From: Desulfocarbo indianensis | GTDB taxonomy: Bacteria > Desulfobacterota > Desulfarculia > Desulfarculales > Desulfarculaceae | Assembly: GCA_001184205.1 (NCBI GenBank) | Contig: LBMP01000001.1 | Location: forward strand, 896,001 to 960,000 | Direction: 5' to 3' | DNA: 64,000 nucleotides | Shown: positions 2,295-61,581 of the stretch, in pieces | Layout of the letters: every line of letters starts with the position of its first letter | How positions within the stretch are numbered: position 1 is the stretch's first letter | The notes under the pieces: model-generated | Told to the model about the DNA's origin: nothing | Database searches by the model: none | The model's input: only the letters and a program-made list of their open reading frames with translations | Made by a program: the position numbers and the translations under genes

Positions 2295-2540
2295 GCCGGC
2301 TTCGCCAGGACCCGGCACACTGCGTTGCCGGCTACGCCTGCCCGCATAGTTCATGGGCAGCGGGCAGTCCCAATGAAAAAACCCTGGCGTCATCGTGGGC
2401 CAATGTGTGTCCGGCCCGGCACAGCCAGGGGCCGGCAAACAAGGCGTCTGGCAAGCGAGGGCCGCAGGCGTAGCTTAAGCTACGTCGAGGCCCGAGCGAG
2501 GCCAGCAACGCAGTGTGCCGGACGCTGGCGAAGCCGGAGC
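2295..2540. repeat. Copy A of the ~260-bp dispersed element (degenerate left end)
   Basis: Read on the minus strand, 2540 to about 2410 matches copy C (36.7 kb) at high identity by eye: CTCCGGCTTCGCCAG, CACTGCGTTGCTGGCC, GACGTAGCTTAAGCTACGCC, CTGCGGCCCTCGCTTGCCAG and CTGGCTGTGCCGGGCC. The far end carries TGAACTATGCGGGC (minus strand, about 2340-2353), a variant of the TGAAATATGCGGGC terminal motif. Next to it, 2295-2340 contains an inverted partial duplicate of the other end (GGCTTCGCCAGGACCCGGCA, ACTGCGTTGCCGGC). The outermost 16-bp TAGCCCGC end is missing on the pheA side. It fills the pheA / small-membrane-protein gap. Confidence 0.7.
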
Positions 2541-3605
2541 TTAGCCCTTGGCGTAGGAGCCAAGTATCTTGAGATGGCTCACTTCCTTGGCCAGCTCGGC
2601 CAGGGCCTGGTCCACGGGCTCGTCGTTGACGTGGCCGTCCAGATCCGCGAAGAACTGGTATTCCCAGGCCGCCTCCCGGGTGGGCCGGCTCTCGATGTGG
2701 GTGAGGTTCACCCCGAAGCGGGCCAGCACGCTCAAGGCCCCGGCCAGGGCGCCGGGATGGTGCCGGGTCACGAAAAGGATGCTGGTCTTGTCGTTGCCGC
2801 TCTCGGGAAAGCGGTGGGGGCCCACGATGAGGTAGCGGGTGAAATTGTCGCGCACCTCCTGCACGTCCTCGGCCAGCACGTTGAGGCCGTGCAGCCGGGC
2901 GGCGGCGCGGCTGGCCAGGGCGGCCGCGCCCGGCTCCCGGGCGGCCAGGCCGGCGGCGGCGGCGCTGGTGGGGGCTTCCTCGCGGGCGGCGGCCGGCAGG
3001 TTGCGGCCCAGCCAGCGGGCGCATTTTTCCAGGGCTCCGGCGTGGGAGATCACCCGGCGCACCCTTTCCAGCCCGGTTTCCTGGGAGACCAGGCAGTAGG
3101 AAACCCGCATCAGCACCTCGCCCATGATCTCCAGGCTGCTTTGGGTGAGCATGTCCAGGGTGGCGGCCACGCTGCCCTCCACCGAGTTTTCCACCGGCGC
3201 CACGCCGAACAGGGCCTTGCCCCGCTCCACCTCGCGGAAAACGTCGGTCACCGAGCCCTGGGCCGCGTACTCCACGCTTTTGCCGAAATGGCTCTGGGCG
3301 GCCAGATGGCAAAACGAGGCGGCCGGCCCCACGTAGGCGATCCGCCTTCCCCCCTGCACCAGGCTGCAGGCCCCTTCGATCTCCCTGAATAGGCCCGCCA
3401 GGGCTTCGTCGGTGAGAGGTCCCCGGTTTAACTTGCGAACTTCGCCAAGAAGCCCTTGGTCCCCCGGTTGGCCCAGGGCGGCGCAGGCGTTGCTCTCCGC
3501 GCCCAGGGCCACGGCCATTTGGGCGCGTTGGTTTACGAGGTCGGCCAGGTTCTTGTCCAACTCCAAAAGGCGCTGGCGGAGTTCCTGGATTTGGCTGTCG
3601 GTCAT
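2541..3605 (-). CDS. pheA: Bifunctional chorismate mutase / prephenate dehydratase (P-protein)
   Basis: Makes phenylpyruvate from chorismate for phenylalanine synthesis. Three parts are visible in the 354 residues: an AroQ-type chorismate mutase helix bundle (about 1-85, LRQRLLELDKNLADLVNQR), a prephenate dehydratase domain (about 88-265, with GPAASFCHLAA and the VAPVENSVEGSV active-site region, and the TRYLIVG end), and a C-terminal ACT regulatory domain (about 275-350, with HPGALAGALSVLARFGVNLT followed by the ESRP phenylalanine-binding motif). A GGGAGG site precedes the ATG. The ACT domain implies feedback inhibition by phenylalanine. It is transcribed alone on the minus strand, and its stop codon abuts repeat copy A. 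Confidence 0.95.
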   Translation of the reverse strand: MTDSQIQELRQRLLELDKNLADLVNQRAQMAVALGAESNACAALGQPGDQGLLGEVRKLNRGPLTDEALAGLFREIEGACSLVQGGRRIAYVGPAASFCHLAAQSHFGKSVEYAAQGSVTDVFREVERGKALFGVAPVENSVEGSVAATLDMLTQSSLEIMGEVLMRVSYCLVSQETGLERVRRVISHAGALEKCARWLGRNLPAAAREEAPTSAAAAGLAAREPGAAALASRAAARLHGLNVLAEDVQEVRDNFTRYLIVGPHRFPESGNDKTSILFVTRHHPGALAGALSVLARFGVNLTHIESRPTREAAWEYQFFADLDGHVNDEPVDQALAELAKEVSHLKILGSYAKG

Positions 3606-17160: not shown

Positions 17161-17233
17161 GGCCCGGCCGGCAACCCAGGCAGCGGGCATCTGGCGCAGC
17201 CGGCCCCCCGGCCTACATGAAATATGCGGGCTA
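17161..17233. repeat. Copy B (solo end) of the dispersed ~260-bp element
   Basis: Read on the minus strand it begins TAGCCCGCATATTTCATG, then CCGGCTGCGCCAG and GGTTGCCGGCC, matching the first ~70 bp of copies C and D. It stops at the MFS gene end, so only one end of the element remains. The first three bases, TAG, are the stop codon of the DotU-SPOR gene. Confidence 0.75.
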
Positions 17234-18493
17234 ATCCTGCTTTATCAGGCTGTCGATCTTGAATTGGCTCTTGATTCGGGCCTGAACCCTTTCGGCCTCT
17301 TCCCGGCTGGCCAGGGGCTTCACCGAGACCACGTAAAGGTCCCTGCCGCCCTGCCGCTCCAGTTTCTCGACCACGGTGGGCAGGCCGGCCTTTTGCAGGC
17401 TGTCCGCCAGGCGGCCCGATTGGATGGGCCCCACGAACACGCCCACCCGCACGCGGTAGCTTTTCTGCGGAGAGAGCGGCGCGGCAGGCGCCGGGGCCTT
17501 TTCGGCGGGGGGCGCGGCCTGGGCCACGGCCTGGGCTGGCGGGGTCCGGGCCGGAGCCGGGGGCTCGGGCCTTTCCTGGCGCGGCGCGGCCTGGGGCTTG
17601 GCCACTGGCGCGGCTGGCGGCGGCGGCTCCGCTGGCGGCGGTTGCGCCTGAGTTTCAGCCGGCGGTTTCATTGGGTCCGGCGGTTTCGCGGCGGGTTTCG
17701 CCCGCGGGGCCTTGGGCGGCGGCGCGGCGGCGGGGGCTGGGCCGGAGCCCGCGGGCGCTTGCGCCGCGGAGACCGCGGCCTGGCTCTTGGCCGGCGCCGG
17801 GCTGGGCTTTTGGGCTTTCTGCGGGGCCGCCTGGGGCGGTTGGGGCTGGGCCGCTTGCGGTTCGCTCACGCTTCGCGGGGGAGGGGGCGTGATAAGCTTG
17901 CCCCCCCGCCAGTGGTTCCAGCCCACCGCCAACACGGCCAGGATAACCGCGGCCGCCGCGCCGCCCCACAGCCAGCCCCGCACCCGGCGGCTCTGCTGGG
18001 CGCGGTCCGCCTTGGGTTCTTCCATGATGCGCGGCTTGGCGGGCAAGCGGGCCAGGAGCTCTTCCTTGACCGCGGCCAGCTCGGGATCGGCCGGGGCGTA
18101 GCGCCCGGAAAACCCCAAGGCCAGGCATAAATAAAAAATGGCCACCACGTCCTGGGGGGCCTGATCCAGGTTTCTGACCAGCTCGAAAAAATGGCTGCCG
18201 GCCTGCTGGGTGTTGTAGAAGCGCTCCTCCAGGAGGGCCTGCCGCCAGGCCGGGGCGTGCTCCCAGCCCGAGGTGAGCACCACCTCGTCGGCCAGGGCCA
18301 CCAGGGCGTAATGCACCTGCCGGTAGGGGCCTTGCAGGATGGAATCGCGTTTGGCCTGGTTGTCCATGCGCGCGAAAATGCCCAAGAGATCGCGGCGCAC
18401 CTCGGGCAACGACGGCGCGGAAGTGGAAGGCGCTTTCTCACGAAAGCGCACAAGATAGGTAAACAGTTCGCGTGCCAGCTCAAAGAGAGTCAA
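17231..18493 (-). CDS. DotU/TssL-family protein fused to a C-terminal SPOR domain
   Basis: Of 420 residues, about 1-155 match the cytoplasmic DotU/IcmH/TssL domain: LADEVVLTSGWEHAPAW, LLEERFYNTQQAGSHFFELV and YLCLALGFSGRY. One membrane helix follows (about 173-192). Then comes a long Pro/Ala/Gln-rich periplasmic linker (about 200-345) and a C-terminal SPOR-like domain (YRVRVGVFVGPIQSGRLADS ... VVSVKPLASREEAERV) expected to bind peptidoglycan. The start appears to be TTG at 18493. No other type IV or VI secretion gene lies in the window, so it is an orphan or serves a distant locus. Its TAG stop is provided by repeat copy B. Confidence 0.8.
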   Translation of the reverse strand: MTLFELARELFTYLVRFREKAPSTSAPSLPEVRRDLLGIFARMDNQAKRDSILQGPYRQVHYALVALADEVVLTSGWEHAPAWRQALLEERFYNTQQAGSHFFELVRNLDQAPQDVVAIFYLCLALGFSGRYAPADPELAAVKEELLARLPAKPRIMEEPKADRAQQSRRVRGWLWGGAAAAVILAVLAVGWNHWRGGKLITPPPPRSVSEPQAAQPQPPQAAPQKAQKPSPAPAKSQAAVSAAQAPAGSGPAPAAAPPPKAPRAKPAAKPPDPMKPPAETQAQPPPAEPPPPAAPVAKPQAAPRQERPEPPAPARTPPAQAVAQAAPPAEKAPAPAAPLSPQKSYRVRVGVFVGPIQSGRLADSLQKAGLPTVVEKLERQGGRDLYVVSVKPLASREEAERVQARIKSQFKIDSLIKQD

Positions 18494-30496: not shown

Positions 30497-30503
30497 GGTC
30501 GCT

Positions 30504-31691
30504 ATGCTGGAAAAAGCTATAACCGGAAGCAAGAACTACTGGGGCTGGCTGGCCTTCCTGCTGGCGGTCATCATAGCGGGCGTGTTGGCCTATCTGGTGC
30601 AATACAACAAGGGCCTCATGATAACCGGCATGAGCCGGGACGTGAGCTGGGGATTCTACATCGCCCAGTTCACCTTCCTGGTCGGCGTGGCGGCCTCGGC
30701 CGTGATGCTGGTGCTGCCCTTCTATCTGCACAATTACAAGGACTTCGGCCGCATCACCATCATGGGCGAATTCCTGGCCATCTCCGCGGTCACCATGTGC
30801 CTCCTGTTCATCATCGTGGACCTTGGCAAGCCCATGCGCGCCTTGAACATGATCCTGCACCCCACGCCCAACTCCATCCTGTTCTGGGACATGATAGTCC
30901 TCAACGGCTATCTGGCCATCAACCTGGTGGTGGGATGGGTGGTGCTTTCGTCCGAGCGCAAGCAGCTGCCGCCGCCGGGCTGGATCAAGCCCATCATCTA
31001 CCTCTCGATCCCCTGGGCGGTCTCCATCCACACGGTGACGGCGTTCCTCTACTGCGGCCTGCCGGGCCGCGGCTTCTGGCTCACCGCCATCCTGGCTCCC
31101 CGCTTTTTGGCCTCGGCCTTCGCCTCGGGTCCCTCGGTGCTGATTCTCCTGTCGCTCCTGGTGCGTAAGCTCACCAAGTTCGACCCCGGCAAGGAGGCCA
31201 TCCAGAGCCTGGCCAAGATCGTGACCTACGCCATCATCCTGAACCTGTTCTTCCTCTCCCTGGAGTTCTTCACGGTCTTCTACAGCCAGATACCCAGCCA
31301 CATGACCCACTTGCAATACCTGTTCGCCGGCTACCACGGCTACGGCGCCCTGGTGCCCTTTATGTGGGCCTCCATGATCTGCGGCCTGTTGGCCATCGCG
31401 CTGTTGATAAACCCCCGCACCCGCAAGAAGGAGCCCGTCCTGGGCGTGGCCGCGGTGCTGGTGTTCATCTGCACCTGGATCGACAAGGGCATGGGCATGA
31501 TCTCCGGCGGTTTCGTGCCCAATCCCCTGCACGAGATCACCGAGTACTCCCCCACGCCCCTGGAGCTGACCATCACCGTCGGCGTTTACGCGGTGGGCAT
31601 CTTCATCCTCACCATCCTCTACAAGGTGGCGGTGGGCGTGAAGGAAGAGATCGGCGACTTCAAGCCCGGCGACGTGGCGCCCAGCCACTAA
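30504..31691 (+). CDS. dsrP: DsrP, NrfD-like integral membrane subunit
   Basis: Quinone-interacting membrane subunit of DsrMKJOP; 395 residues with about ten transmembrane helices in the NrfD/HmeB pattern. Characteristic stretches are GMSRDVSWGFYIAQFTFLVG, HPTPNSILFWD, ERKQLPPPGW and YSQIPSHMTHLQYLF. It is the last gene of the operon; a terminator and tandem repeats follow. A close paralogue lies alone at 60242-61399. Confidence 0.95.
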   Translation: MLEKAITGSKNYWGWLAFLLAVIIAGVLAYLVQYNKGLMITGMSRDVSWGFYIAQFTFLVGVAASAVMLVLPFYLHNYKDFGRITIMGEFLAISAVTMCLLFIIVDLGKPMRALNMILHPTPNSILFWDMIVLNGYLAINLVVGWVVLSSERKQLPPPGWIKPIIYLSIPWAVSIHTVTAFLYCGLPGRGFWLTAILAPRFLASAFASGPSVLILLSLLVRKLTKFDPGKEAIQSLAKIVTYAIILNLFFLSLEFFTVFYSQIPSHMTHLQYLFAGYHGYGALVPFMWASMICGLLAIALLINPRTRKKEPVLGVAAVLVFICTWIDKGMGMISGGFVPNPLHEITEYSPTPLELTITVGVYAVGIFILTILYKVAVGVKEEIGDFKPGDVAPSH

Positions 31692-31762: not shown

Positions 31763-31796
31763 ACAGCCCCCTCCCTGCCAAGGGAGGGGGCTGTTT
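31763..31796 (+). terminator. Terminator of the dsrMKJOP operon
   Basis: ACAGCCCCCTCCCT and AGGGAGGGGGCTGT form a long GC-rich hairpin with a very short loop, followed by TTTT. It lies about 70 bp after dsrP. Its right arm forms part of the 72-bp tandem repeat, so part of the hairpin is repeated downstream. Confidence 0.75.
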
Positions 31797-31937
31797 TGCG
31801 GGGAGCGAGGACAGCTTCCACGTTATCCAAGGCAGGTCTTATCCCTCTGCCAAGGGAGGGGGCTGTTTTGCGGGGAGCGAGGACAGCTTCCACGTTATCC
31901 AAGGCAGGTCTTATCCCCTTGCCAAGGGAGGGGCTTT
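31776..31937. repeat. 72-bp tandem direct repeat (2 full copies plus 18 bp)
   Basis: Near-perfect units start at 31776, 31848 and 31920. Each begins TGCCAAGGGAGGGG, continues through GCGGGGAGCGAGGACAGC and TTCCACGTTATCC, and ends AGGCAGGTCTTATCC. The third copy is cut after about 18 bp. There are no variable spacers, so it is not a CRISPR array. It carries the right arm of the dsr terminator hairpin. Confidence 0.9.
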
Positions 31938-36682: not shown

Positions 36683-36943
36683 CAGCCCGCATATTTCAGG
36701 AGGGCCGCGCGTCCGGCTGCGCCAGCCAGCGGTACCCTGCGTTGCTGGCCGCTCTCGAGCCTTGACGTAGCTTTGGCTACGCCTGCGGCCCTCGCTTGCC
36801 AGACGTCTTGTCTACCGGCGGCTGGCTGTGCCGGGCCCGAGTACGAACCGTCCCTCGATTATGATGCGGCCTTCTTCATATTAGTCCCATGAATACTAAC
36901 TCGTCGCTTAATGCCGCCCGCCCCTCGTGAAATATGCGGGCTA
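36683..36943. repeat. Copy C: intact ~261-bp element with inverted ends
   Basis: The left end is CAGCCCGCATATTTCA and the right end TGAAATATGCGGGCTA, a 14-15 bp inverted match. The internal left half contains CCGGCTGCGCCAG, CCTGCGTTGCTGGCC, GACGTAGCTTTGGCTACGCC, GCGGCCCTCGCTTGCCAG and GGCTGGCTGTGCCGGGCCC, shared with copies A and D. The right half is more AT-rich and variable. The right-end CTA is the TAG stop of the ubiD-like gene. No open frame of note is inside. Confidence 0.85.
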
Positions 36944-38398
36944 GAGCAATCCCCATTTCTGGAGCTTGGCCAGAGCGCTTTTTTGCACCTCGGGCGTCAT
37001 CTCGATGCGGTCGGGCCACTCCCGCTTGAATCCCTCCTCGGGCCATTTCCTGGTGCCGTCGATGCCCATCTTGCTGTGCAGCCAGGGCAGCTCCGCCGCG
37101 TGGTCCAGGGCGTCGGCCGGCCCCTTGCTGAAGAGAATGTCGCGGGCGGGGTCTATGTGGTTGAGGGCCTCCCACCAGGCGGCCTGGGGATTCTGCACGT
37201 CCACCTGGGCGTCCACCACCACGATGACCTTGGCGAACATCATCTGGCCCTGGCCCCACAGGGCGTTCATCACCTTGTAGGCGTGGCCGGGATACTCCTT
37301 GTTGATGGCCACGAACACCAGGTTGTGAAAAACGCCCTCGGCCGGCATGTGGTAATCCCGCACCTCGGGCAGCACCATCTGCAACAGCGGCAGGAAAATG
37401 CGCTCGGTGGCCAGGCCCAGGTAGAAATCTTCCATGGGCGGCCGGCCCACCACGGTGGCGGGATAGACGAACTCCCGGCGGTGGGTGACGGCGGTGATAT
37501 GAAAAACCGGATAGTCGTCGGCCAGGGAATAAAAGCCGGTGTGATCGCCGAAGGGCCCCTCGCGCCGCCAGGGTTCGGCCGGGTCCACGTAGCCCTCCAG
37601 CACCACCTCGGCCTCGGCCGGCACCATGAGATCGCTGGTGAGGGCTTTCACGGTTTTCAGCGGGCGTCCCATGAGAAAGCCGCTGAACATGAACTCGTCC
37701 ATCACCGGCGGCAGCGGCGCGCTGGCGGCGTAGACCGCCGCCGGCGGCCCGCCCAGGGCCACGGCCACGGGCAGCTTCCGGCCCAGCGCCTTGGCCTTGT
37801 TGTAATGGGCCGCGCCGCCCTTGTGGCGGTGCCAGTGCATGCCGGTGGTGCGCTGATCAAAGCGCTGCATGCGGTACATGCCCACGTTCTGCTTGCCGCT
37901 CTCCGGGTCGGCGGTGATCACCTGGGGCAGGGTGATGAAGGGGCCGGCGTCCTCGGGCCAGCAGGTGAGGATGGGCAGGATATCCAGGCTGGCGGCCTGG
38001 TCCAGGAGCCGCACCTCCTGGCAGGGCGCGTCCTTCACCTGCTTGGGGGCGAAGGCGCTCAGCTCTTTCAGCTTGGGGAGCGCCATGGTTATCTTGGCCC
38101 ACAGGCCCTGAGGCAGCTCCATCTGCATGAGGCTCCGCAGGCGCTCGGCGATTTCGGTGAGTTCCTCCACGCCCAGGGCCAGGCCCATGCGCTCCCGCGA
38201 GCCGAAGAGGTTTATGGCCAGGGGGCAGGCCGCGCCCTTCACCCGCTCGAAAAGCAGGGCCGGGCCTTGCGCCTTCATCACCGGCTCGCTGAGCGCGGTG
38301 ATTTCCAGGCAGGGGTCCACCTCCTCCTCGATGCGCTTCAGCCAGCCGCGCTTGGAAAGCTCCTGGATGAATTCCCCTATGCTGGACGGGGCTTGCAT
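36941..38398 (-). CDS. mqnL: UbiD-family decarboxylase (menaquinone pathway, MqnL-like)
   Basis: A prenylated-FMN-type decarboxylase of 485 residues. Family signs include an N-terminal FIQELSKRGWLKRIEEEVDP, the MYRMQRFDQRTTGMHWHRHKG segment, EAEVVLEGYVDPAEPWRREG with GPFGDHTGFYS (the conserved E-x-P-x-GDHTG-type active region), and a C-terminal PEGF-like stretch (EEGFKREWPDRIEM). Together with the UbiA-like gene it probably decarboxylates and prenylates the dihydroxynaphthoate precursor of menaquinone. A TAG stop at the very end lies within repeat copy C. Confidence 0.85.
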   Translation of the reverse strand: MQAPSSIGEFIQELSKRGWLKRIEEEVDPCLEITALSEPVMKAQGPALLFERVKGAACPLAINLFGSRERMGLALGVEELTEIAERLRSLMQMELPQGLWAKITMALPKLKELSAFAPKQVKDAPCQEVRLLDQAASLDILPILTCWPEDAGPFITLPQVITADPESGKQNVGMYRMQRFDQRTTGMHWHRHKGGAAHYNKAKALGRKLPVAVALGGPPAAVYAASAPLPPVMDEFMFSGFLMGRPLKTVKALTSDLMVPAEAEVVLEGYVDPAEPWRREGPFGDHTGFYSLADDYPVFHITAVTHRREFVYPATVVGRPPMEDFYLGLATERIFLPLLQMVLPEVRDYHMPAEGVFHNLVFVAINKEYPGHAYKVMNALWGQGQMMFAKVIVVVDAQVDVQNPQAAWWEALNHIDPARDILFSKGPADALDHAAELPWLHSKMGIDGTRKWPEEGFKREWPDRIEMTPEVQKSALAKLQKWGLL

Positions 38399-38901: not shown

Positions 38902-39532
38902 TCATTAATCCTTTCTTGAATTATATGTCGCTTTGCCTGGAACGGAGGCATTCCCGCGTCCGCAATCAGGCTTGTTTTCCGGACCGGCGATTGAGCCTTT
39001 GGCCCTGCCGCGTGGGACCAGGCTATTCGCCTGATATGGCCCTGGCCCGCCGGCAGCGGCCCAGGCGGCGCTTGCAAAACCATAAAAAAGGGAAGCCAAG
39101 GCCGGCGGCGGCGGATTCTCTTGCAAGGCCCAGGCCGCCTCCCATTGCGGGCCCCGAAGAATACGCGAGTAAATCGGTCCCGGAATGTCGCCCAGCCAAG
39201 TTACGAGGCTTTTTTATAATTATGGGGCTGCAATTTATGCTTGCCAAGATGCCCTAAATATAAGTTTGGTGAAAAGATGGTAACGGCCGCTTAGGATGAC
39301 GCTGCATTACGGATTGGATAAAAATCAGAATTGGGATGATTGGCGCGATTATCCAACGGTCTTTTTGGCTGACCGATAAATTTTATTGCGGCCAAACACA
39401 CGCAAAAGGTTGACGGCATCGTAAAAAATAGCTTAGATTAGTTTTTCAATAGGGAAGGAATTGTTGGCTAAATTAATCTTCTTGCAAAAAGGAATCAGGC
39501 CAATACGGCAAACTCTAAGGGAGGAATCGCTT
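38902..39532. other. Long intergenic region with a promoter for the H1-like gene
   Basis: A 631-bp divergent gap with no supported gene. The last ~300 bases are AT-richer than the surroundings. TTGACG (39410-39415), 18 bases, TAGATT (39434-39439) is a plausible promoter, giving a leader of about 85 nt to the H1-like start. The 38.9-39.2 kb part is GC-rich and may be decayed coding sequence, but I cannot support that. Confidence 0.5.
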
Positions 39533-39901
39533 ATGGCCACCAAAAAACCCGCTGCCAAGAAGAAGGCCGCCCCCAAGAAGGCCGCGCCCAAGAAAGCGGC
39601 AGCTAAAAAAGCGGCGCCCAAAAAGGCTGCGGTGAAGAAAGCCGCACCCAAGAAAGCGGCAGCTAAAAAAGCGGCGCCCAAGAAGGCTGTGGCTAAAAAA
39701 GCGGCGCCCAAGAAGGCTGTGGTGAAGAAAGCCGCGCCCAAGAAAGCCGCGCCCAAGAAAGCGGCGCCCAAAAAGGCTGTGGCTAAAAAAGCCGAACCCA
39801 CGGTGAAGGAACTGCAGGCGCAGGCCAGGGCCAAGAACATTCCCGGCCGCTCAAAAATGAACAAGGCCCAACTGCAGGCCGCGTTGAAAAAGGCGCGCTA
39901 G
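39533..39901 (+). CDS. Histone H1-like Lys/Ala/Pro-repeat DNA-binding protein
   Basis: A 122-residue very basic protein. Residues about 4-85 are tandem pentapeptide-like units (PKKAA, AKKAA, VKKAA), as in bacterial H1-like proteins (Bordetella BpH1, Chlamydia Hc2, AlgP). The C-terminal ~35 residues (TVKELQAQARAKNIPGRSK, MNKAQLQAALKKA) resemble a SAP/Rho-N-type helix-extended-loop-helix nucleic-acid motif. GGGAGGA precedes the ATG. The coding DNA is itself repetitive: a 60-70 bp block recurs, so length variation between strains is likely. It has its own promoter and terminator. Confidence 0.85.
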   Translation: MATKKPAAKKKAAPKKAAPKKAAAKKAAPKKAAVKKAAPKKAAAKKAAPKKAVAKKAAPKKAVVKKAAPKKAAPKKAAPKKAVAKKAEPTVKELQAQARAKNIPGRSKMNKAQLQAALKKAR

Positions 39902-57226: not shown

Positions 57227-57652
57227 ATGGACCCACAGGATGCCCATACTTGGGAGCCCATCGGGGTGGTGCGCTCCGCTTACGGCTCCCGCCGGGAAGC
57301 CCCCAAGCAGGGGCCCGAGGCGGGCGGCCAGGCGGTCATAGAGCTCCGCGAGCAATGGGCGCCGGCCCTCAAGGGCCTGGAGCCGGGCCGCTATCTGTGG
57401 GTGCTCACCTATTTCCACCAGGCGGACCGGCCCCGGCAGGAGGTGCACCCTCGGGGAGACCCCAGCCGGCCCCTCACCGGACTCTTCAACAGCCGCGCCC
57501 CCAGCCGGCCCAATCCCATCGGGCTCACCCTGGTCAAGCTGGCGGCCATAGCCGGCAACAAACTCACCGTGCGCGGGCTGGAGGCCCTGGACGGCACCCC
57601 GGTGCTGGACCTCAAGCCCTACGTGCCCGGCATAGACGAGCCCCGGGATTAG
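57227..57652 (+). CDS. trmO: tRNA (N6-threonylcarbamoyladenosine-37-N6)-methyltransferase TrmO
   Basis: A SAM-dependent tRNA methyltransferase of the TsaA/YaeB family; 141 residues. Signatures are WEPIGVVRSAYGSRREAPKQ at the start, LWVLTYFHQADRPR, GDPSRPLTGLFNSRAPSRPN (the family FATRSPxRPN-like loop) and the ending LDGTPVLDLKPYVPGID. It modifies t6A37 in certain tRNAs. Its TAG stop codon is the first three bases of repeat copy D. Confidence 0.92.
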   Translation: MDPQDAHTWEPIGVVRSAYGSRREAPKQGPEAGGQAVIELREQWAPALKGLEPGRYLWVLTYFHQADRPRQEVHPRGDPSRPLTGLFNSRAPSRPNPIGLTLVKLAAIAGNKLTVRGLEALDGTPVLDLKPYVPGIDEPRD

Positions 57653-57909
57653 CCCGCTTATTTCATGAAGGTTGGGTGGCCATGGCGGATTCGGCGACCA
57701 AGGCGGGCGGATTGAAGAATGAGCCCCATATTAAAAGGTGGCGATTTGTCGCCCGGAGCGGCACAGCCGGTTGACCGCCGCTCAGGCGGCAGGCAAGCCA
57801 AGGAGGCAGGCGTGGTTGTAACCCCAGCGACGACTTGGCGCGGCCGGCAACGCGGGCGGCGGGCATCCGGCGCAGCCGGACATCTGACCCTCTTGAAATA
57901 CGCGGGCTA
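57650..57909. repeat. Copy D: intact 260-bp element with inverted ends
   Basis: It begins TAGCCCGCTTATTTCATG and ends TTGAAATACGCGGGCTA, with the ends inverted relative to each other. Read on the minus strand from 57909 its first half matches copies B and C: CCGGCTGCGCCGG, GCGTTGCCGGCC, ACGCCTGC and CCGGCTGTGCC at equivalent spacing. Both ends sit at a TA: TAG is the trmO stop on the left, and CTAGG with the MBL gene ATG 6 bases beyond on the right. It lies in the only gap of a trmO-MBL-ttcA gene row. Confidence 0.85.
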
Positions 57910-60241: not shown

Positions 60242-61399
60242 TTAGTTCTCCGCTTCCAGTTTAACCCCCACGGCCACCTTGTAGAACACCGTGAGCAGAA
60301 ACGCGCCCAGGGCGTAGATGCCGATGGCGATGAGAATCTCCAGGCCGGTGGGCGCGTACTCGGTGACCTCGTGCAGGGGATTGGGGATGAAGCCGCCGGC
60401 CATCATGCCCAGGCCCTTGTCGATCCAGGTGCAGCCGAACACCAACAGACAGGCAATGGCCAGTACGGTGTGGTTGGCCCGCCAGCGGGGCTTGAGCAGG
60501 ATGATGATGGAGGCGAAACCCATGACCATGGCGGCCCACATCCAGGGCAGCAGGCTGGCCTTGCCGTGCAGCCCGGCGTAGAGGTAGACGAAGTGGGTCA
60601 TGTGGCTGGGTATCTGGCTGTAGAACACGGTGAAGACTTCCAGGAAAAAGAAGAACAAGTGCAATATGATGGCGTAGCAGACGATCTTGGCCAGACTCTC
60701 GATGGCCCGGCGGCCCGCGTCGAAGCCCGCCACCCGCTTTAAAACCAGGGCCAGGATGATGAGCACCGCCGGCCCGGCGGCGAAAGCCGAAGCCAAAAAG
60801 CGCGGGGCCATGATGGCCGTGAGCCAGTAGCCCCGGCCGGGCATGCCGGAATAGAGAAAGGCGGTGACGGTGTGGATGGAAACCGCCAGGGGAATGGAAA
60901 AATAAATGAGCGGCTTCACCCAGCCGGGCGGGGGAAGCTGCTTGCGCTCGGCCTGCAAGGTCACCCAGCCGATGAGCAGGTTCAGGATCATGTAGCCGCT
61001 GAGCACGTTAACGTCCCAGAACATCACCGAGTTGGGCGTGGGGTGCAAAAAGACGTTGAGCACCCGGGCCGGCTTGCCCAAGTCCACCGTCACGAAAAGC
61101 ATGCACATCAGGACCGCCACCACCGCCAGGAACTCGCCCAGGATGGTGATGCGCCCGAAGTCTTTGTAATGGTGCAGGTAATAGGGCAGAACCAGCATCA
61201 CGGCCGAGGCGGCCACGCCCACCAGGAAGGTGAGCTGGGCGATATAGAGACCCCAGGACACGTCGCGGCTGAGGCCGGTCACCATGAGGCCCTGGCTGAA
61301 CTGAATCAGGTAGGCCGCGAATCCCGCCGCGATGAGCAGCGCCAGGCAGCCCAGCCAGCTCCAATACGCCTTGTTTCCCTTGACCGCCAGTTCCAACAT
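60242..61399 (-). CDS. Second DsrP/NrfD-like membrane subunit (orphan paralogue)
   Basis: A 385-residue quinone-interacting membrane protein clearly homologous along its whole length to DsrP at 30504-31691: GLSRDVSWGLYIAQLTFLVG, HPTPNSVMFWD, ERKQLPPPGWVKP, YSQIPSHMTHFVYLY and TWIDKGLGMMAGGFIPNPLH. It has about ten helices. No Fe-S or cytochrome partner lies beside it, only a small membrane protein. It might replace DsrP in the complex or pair with another module; which one cannot be seen here. Confidence 0.9.
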   Translation of the reverse strand: MLELAVKGNKAYWSWLGCLALLIAAGFAAYLIQFSQGLMVTGLSRDVSWGLYIAQLTFLVGVAASAVMLVLPYYLHHYKDFGRITILGEFLAVVAVLMCMLFVTVDLGKPARVLNVFLHPTPNSVMFWDVNVLSGYMILNLLIGWVTLQAERKQLPPPGWVKPLIYFSIPLAVSIHTVTAFLYSGMPGRGYWLTAIMAPRFLASAFAAGPAVLIILALVLKRVAGFDAGRRAIESLAKIVCYAIILHLFFFFLEVFTVFYSQIPSHMTHFVYLYAGLHGKASLLPWMWAAMVMGFASIIILLKPRWRANHTVLAIACLLVFGCTWIDKGLGMMAGGFIPNPLHEVTEYAPTGLEILIAIGIYALGAFLLTVFYKVAVGVKLEAEN

Positions 61400-61581
61400 G
61401 GCATTGCCCTCCTGCGGCGAGCGGTTGTGGCTCTTCAGTGATCTAAAAAAATTTACCTGCTAAACATTAGGCTGCTCCCCTGACGCCGGTCGCGGTGGCT
61501 GGCCGATAATAATTTTGAATTCTATTAATCGTATAGCCAGCCTTGCGCCCCAAATCGGCGGGCGGTGAGTCTCCGCATTTT

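Follow-up and report, generated by a model that had tools for sequence, protein, structure and literature searches.

What is the 261-bp sequence at positions 36683-36943 of this Desulfocarbo indianensis contig, by which enzyme could it have been moved, and why does its tip coincide with the stop codon of a gene? The DNA analysed, referred to throughout as the window, is the whole 64-kb stretch. A preliminary description had read the sequence as a member of a dispersed, MITE-like or Correia-like family without open frames and had suggested an IS630/Tc1-type partner with a TA target.

Copies in the window and in the genome

Four copies were located in the window (Table 1). The two intact ones have the positions and lengths originally assigned to them, and the remaining two were confirmed with adjustments, as the solo end reported at 17161-17233 is real but starts at 17165, and the degenerate copy at 2295-2540, while real, consists mainly of an inner module with 86% identity to 36712-36840, plus a decayed end. 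The inverted ends are indeed shared, the 16-base end motif occurring seven times in the window at up to 3 mismatches against 0.26 expected, although the 36683 copy reads CAGCCC at its left tip, with one mismatch. No gene-sized reading frame lies inside the window elements, the longest stop-free stretch in the three larger copies being 69-82 codons, in line with the earlier statement on open frames. An Rfam search of the window returned tRNA only, and no element match rose above the gathering threshold.

Table 1. Element copies, their parts and the adjoining stop codons in the window.
Feature	Position	Strand	Remarks
Intact element, 261 bp	36683-36943	+	Left arm (CCGGCTGCGCCAG side) first; 47 blastn matches in own genome
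Left terminal inverted repeat CAGCCCGCATATTTCAGGA	36683-36701	+	First base departs from consensus T
Right terminal inverted repeat	36925-36943	-	TAGCCCGCATATTTCACGA read on minus strand
Inner hairpin module	36712-36840	+	Elsewhere also without ends; absent from 151-bp forms
Second intact element, 260 bp	57650-57909	-	Opposite orientation to 36683-36943 copy
Solo element end, ~69 bp	17165-17233	-	Terminal repeat intact
Degenerate, rearranged copy	~2295-2540	-	Inner module 2410-2538, decayed end 2338-2353
TAG at element tip, stop of ubiD-like gene 36941-38398	36941-36943	-	
TAG at element tip, stop of trmO-like gene 57266-57652	57650-57652	+	
TAG at solo-end tip, stop of DotU/SPOR-domain gene 17231-18409	17231-17233	-	
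TAA stop of prephenate-dehydratase-like (pheA-like) gene 2541-3605	2541-2543	-	Adjoins degenerate copy

The blastn survey and copy count proposed in the preliminary description extend the family well beyond the window. With up to 2 mismatches the end motif occurs 78 times in the 5.1-Mb genome of the organism (G000), against none for the reversed control, and at least 30 copies are paired. Lengths between paired ends form a tight cluster at 256-262 bp, accompanied by forms of 151-152 bp that are devoid of the inner module and by a few further sizes, including one of 357 bp in relatives. At five loci of the own genome (L014, L016, L018, L019 and L021; L numbers denote individual loci) the inner hairpin module, element positions ~29-158, matches without ends.

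The window also holds repetition of other kinds. A 72-bp tandem duplication with 99% identity occupies 31775-31918, and a 15-bp unit occurs at least 14 times at 39530-39829, inside the ORF 39461-39901, where it probably encodes a repetitive protein tail. Paralogous genes of ~390 aa, with 75-79% DNA identity, lie in opposite orientation at 30501-31642 and 60261-61402.

Spread and nature of the element

One sister genus in the Desulfarculaceae has the same elements, mostly of 261 bp, in every one of its eight searched genomes, and searches of five other Desulfarculaceae genera and of other families of the class revealed no such elements. Seven element sites could be aligned with relatives and the element is absent from most of them, with one TA at the empty site and TA on both sides of the occupied one. 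In the relative G012 the element is present at the L103 site and a short remnant lies at the L132 site. This remnant (L373, on contig C35), of ~30 bp and with two element-like tips at shared stop codons, suggests an old insertion with an internal deletion. A second relative, G018, displays a burst of nearly identical ends, 184 of them at up to 3 mismatches, and this burst is recent. Many of the 640 contigs of G018 stop ~80-100 bp inside an element, and the elements seem to break its assembly.

In other genomes, at least 115 stretches contain the exact 19-base end, against ~2 expected by chance. They are distributed over Gammaproteobacteria, Planctomycetota, Nitrospinota, Neomarinimicrobiota, Cloacimonadota and others, where the ends are often paired at 150-550 bp. 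Plasmid and phage records searched with the 261-bp element gave no match.

The reading of the window repeats as non-autonomous, MITE-like elements is thus supported. They are short, multicopy and without a transposase gene, they carry terminal inverted repeats and show target duplication with empty sites, and their ends are common to an autonomous element, found in other organisms and not in the own genome. The MITE or Correia-like interpretation had been stated to fail if only the window copies existed, with no end in common across the genome, or if positions were conserved across species as for a cis-regulatory RNA; instead, many genomic copies share their ends, their length is nearly constant, they are dispersed, and the sites of relatives are empty. 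A REP-like hairpin reading of the ends alone was dropped, since inner pairing is lost in variant ends. For REP/BIME sequences mobilised through Y1 (RAYT) proteins, PF01797 is absent from G000 and from several element-bearing genomes, and where Y1 genes exist the ends are not paired around them.

Correia/NEMIS, ERIC/IRU and RUP elements are similarly small, with inverted ends, TA termini, no transposase and a long RNA hairpin (PMC2229807). They differ from the window family in end sequence and partner (IS630-Spn1 for RUP) and are A+T-rich, whereas the window family is GC-rich and, unlike them, strongly concentrated at stop codons. TIMEs, the Tn3-derived miniature elements of 262 bp, share a constant length near 262 bp, the lack of genes and the end-to-end fold (PMC4133298), but have Tn3-type ends, duplications of 5-6 bp and usually one copy per genome. 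Within the open-access literature, no recognisable description was found of this end sequence, of an IS1380 MITE or of the link between ISPa33 and CTAG.

Transposase partner and target site

Judged by shared end sequences, the partner type is predicted to be IS1380, of the ISPa33/ISMaq4 subgroup. In a Kordiimonas MAG, a pair of ends (L161) spans 1587 bp, with a transposase of 448 aa in between (PF13701, E=1.4e-157; NCBIfam IS1380 equivalog); over 19 bases, the right end of L161 matches the MITE consensus exactly. Among 395 genomes of the phylum, a second complete IS1380 element was found (L282, 1688 bp), along with several partial elements in which one end lies where expected. The closest annotated plasmid relatives are ISPa33 and ISMaq4, with ends TAGCCCGGATTTCTCATGA of the same type, to which an Acidovorax IS1380 element with ends TAGCCCGGATATTTCAC also belongs; the ends of L416 read TAGCCCGGATATTTCAC, like those of the G018 elements. 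Near-identical ends are carried by complete IS1380 elements in Kordiimonas, Acidovorax and Desulfobacterota. The window family shares with the ISPa33/ISMaq4 subgroup the 16-bp inverted end CCCGGATTTCTCATGA / CCCGSATATTTCAYGA and the flanking Y-TA-R target, but is gene-less, while members of the subgroup carry a transposase and measure ~1.56-1.69 kb. The piggyBac superfamily, eukaryotic relatives of IS1380, also has ends that often begin with CCC and a TTAA-like target (PMC10813416), and differs in its eukaryotic hosts and in its use of TTAA with a 4-bp duplication.

Searches of the own genome, of G018 and of other Desulfarculaceae yielded no intact IS1380 transposase, so the window copies are either orphans or a local transposase was missed. 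The few PF01609 and PF13586 transposases in Desulfarculaceae do not carry these ends. Solo ends at L107, L111 and L116 were considered as ends of a Desulfarculaceae IS and rejected, as they adjoin ordinary genes with a second end that is degraded or not found nearby. The suggested IS630/Tc1 partner was not borne out, since PF13358 is without a match in nine genomes; the TA target proposed with it does agree with the Desulfarculaceae copies, in which TA is duplicated. An IS630/Tc1-mariner MITE was accordingly rejected in spite of that duplication.

In 92-95% of ends the TA is flanked on its outer side by C or T, and positions farther out show no clear bias, which defines the target as Y-TA-R. 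The extent of the duplication differs between groups. ISPa33 duplicates 4 bp (CTAG, CTAA or TTAG) in 13 of 16 copies, matching the published direct-repeat length of 4 (PMC4133298), and the MITEs of other phyla have identical flanking 4-mers in 31 of 62 pairs. In the Desulfarculaceae copies only 6 of 58 pairs are identical, combinations such as TTAG/CTAG and CTAG/CTAA being common, and among recent G018 pairs the 4-mers are mismatched in 4 of 10. The Desulfarculaceae copies thus duplicate TA alone, with G and C being the element's own. This 2-bp versus 4-bp difference from ISPa33 is real in the data, and because of it the Desulfarculaceae enzyme may differ from that of ISPa33. Although the window family has the terminal inverted repeats of the ISPa33 subgroup, the lack of the 4-5 bp duplication (YTAR in ISPa33) in Desulfarculaceae copies means that strict IS1380 (ISPa33) membership is not claimed for the window copies.

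Insertion at stop codons and competing explanations

All four window copies adjoin the stop codon of a gene, a point absent from the preliminary description. The pattern holds across the Desulfarculaceae ends: a gene with GC3 support terminates in the tip's frame in 53 cases and in each of the two other frames in 2, and at least one end is at a stop in 39 of 65 paired elements. Element-free orthologues end at the same place, with one TA and often with TAG, and the element at L132 sits on a TA common to two convergent stops. Non-coding insertions fall exactly at a stop in 36 of 51 cases, compared with 141 of 966 (14.6%) non-coding Y-TA-R sites (p=3e-19; site counts come from a simple gene caller, at 79-82% coding, and are approximate). 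In plasmid pKF715A an ISPa33 copy (L411, 533-535) lies exactly at the TAA stop of bphD, as a MITE would; other ISPa33 copies do not.

The best explanation overall, to which we assign a probability of about 0.8, is an IS1380-type MITE mobilised in trans at Y-TA-R, with stops enriched through targeting and retention. A transposase supplied in trans would recognise (TA)GCCCGSATATTTCAYGA at either end of the element and insert it at a Y-TA-R site, duplicating the TA. More often than not this site would be a TAA or TAG stop codon. As the element starts with G, the stop would become TA-G at one end, with TA-R left at the other, and the gene would keep its length because the first G of the element rebuilds the stop. 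Y-TA-R sites within genes are rare in these GC-rich, gene-dense genomes and insertions there usually harmful, and copies would accumulate at stops by targeting together with selective retention. Shared ends, dispersed copies, empty sites, stop position, unbiased orientation and IS1380 elements with the same ends elsewhere are seen directly, and we infer that these very copies were moved by an IS1380-type transposase and that the excess at stops is due to selection.

The age of the copies bears on how the stop excess arose. Old copies lie at stops in 71% of cases, more often than recent ones (about half), as selective retention predicts. In the recent G018 burst 14 of 57 ends are gene stops, with none in other frames, amounting to about half of the elements. 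Could the transposition machinery instead actively recognise the stop codon or the end of a gene, for instance by way of the termination of translation or transcription? Stops hold 36 elements at 141 sites, compared with 8 elements at the 187 sites that lie up to 100 bp downstream of genes (odds ratio 6, p=1.3e-6), and the excess persists against CTAG sites alone (p=1e-8), as such recognition would predict. The sequence bias is nevertheless limited to the bases next to the TA, the stop share of the recent burst exceeds the 31% share of CTAG sites by a modest margin only, four groups belonging to other phyla show a weak excess (7 of 28), and autonomous IS1380 copies are rarely at stops. The idea of stop recognition was scaled back because of the recent-burst and other-phyla tests and is considered very unlikely. 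The excess is better attributed to Y-TA-R targeting in GC-rich genomes combined with the removal of harmful insertions, a real preference keeping a smaller chance.

The structure of the elements invites a further reading, in which they are domesticated RNA structures of 3' ends (mRNA stabilisers, terminators or processing sites), selected at gene ends and only secondarily mobile. They fold end to end with z scores of -4.3 to -7.3 relative to shuffles. When 34 copies are aligned, compensatory changes to both partners are seen in 19 of 52 base pairs, a count that none of the 500 shuffles and none of the slid controls reached. The higher stop share of old copies would fit this reading, as would the near absence of copies from convergent intergenic regions, where 137 Y-TA-R sites hold one element; this also speaks against the favoured reading of targeting plus retention, since insertion there should be harmless and simple neutrality does not predict it. 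Many of the paired changes, however, are found together in a single subfamily with about nine members and are not independent, so they count as few events. End-to-end folding is moreover usual among bacterial MITEs (PMC2229807; PMC4133298) and by itself does not show a host function. The element end facing the gene is one or the other in 22 cases each, positions are not conserved, with relatives' sites empty, and the 36683 element contains no terminator-like site, which together make domestication distinctly unlikely.

The enzyme itself might also have been another. A transposase of another kind, specific for TA and either IS630/Tc1-like or IS427-like, may have moved the Desulfarculaceae copies by means of converged or shared ends, as could be expected from the duplication of TA alone with G and C fixed inside, and from the 2-bp repeats of IS427-group insertion sequences (PMC3281130). 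This is unlikely, given that nine genomes yielded no DDE_3 (IS630) match, that PF13586 has no match in G000 or G018, that no PF01609 match is flanked by these ends, and that the ends have the 16-bp core seen in IS1380 elements. A tentative variant, which we regard as rather unlikely, is that in Desulfarculaceae an IS1380-related transposase with its cut shifted by one base on each side, and hence duplicating TA and not 4 bp, prefers stop codons and regenerates TAG, thereby sparing the host. Such host-sparing targeting of stop codons was found described for no bacterial MITE in the open-access literature.

Because the duplication shrinks from 4 bp to 2 bp while the end sequence stays the same, the cleavage step of an IS1380/piggyBac-type transposase becomes testable. 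An unnamed repeat that spans many phyla is tied to a specific transposase subgroup, which makes such repeats annotatable. The family also illustrates clearly how a mobile element persists in a genome that is GC-rich and densely packed with genes: it inserts into a stop codon and restores it.
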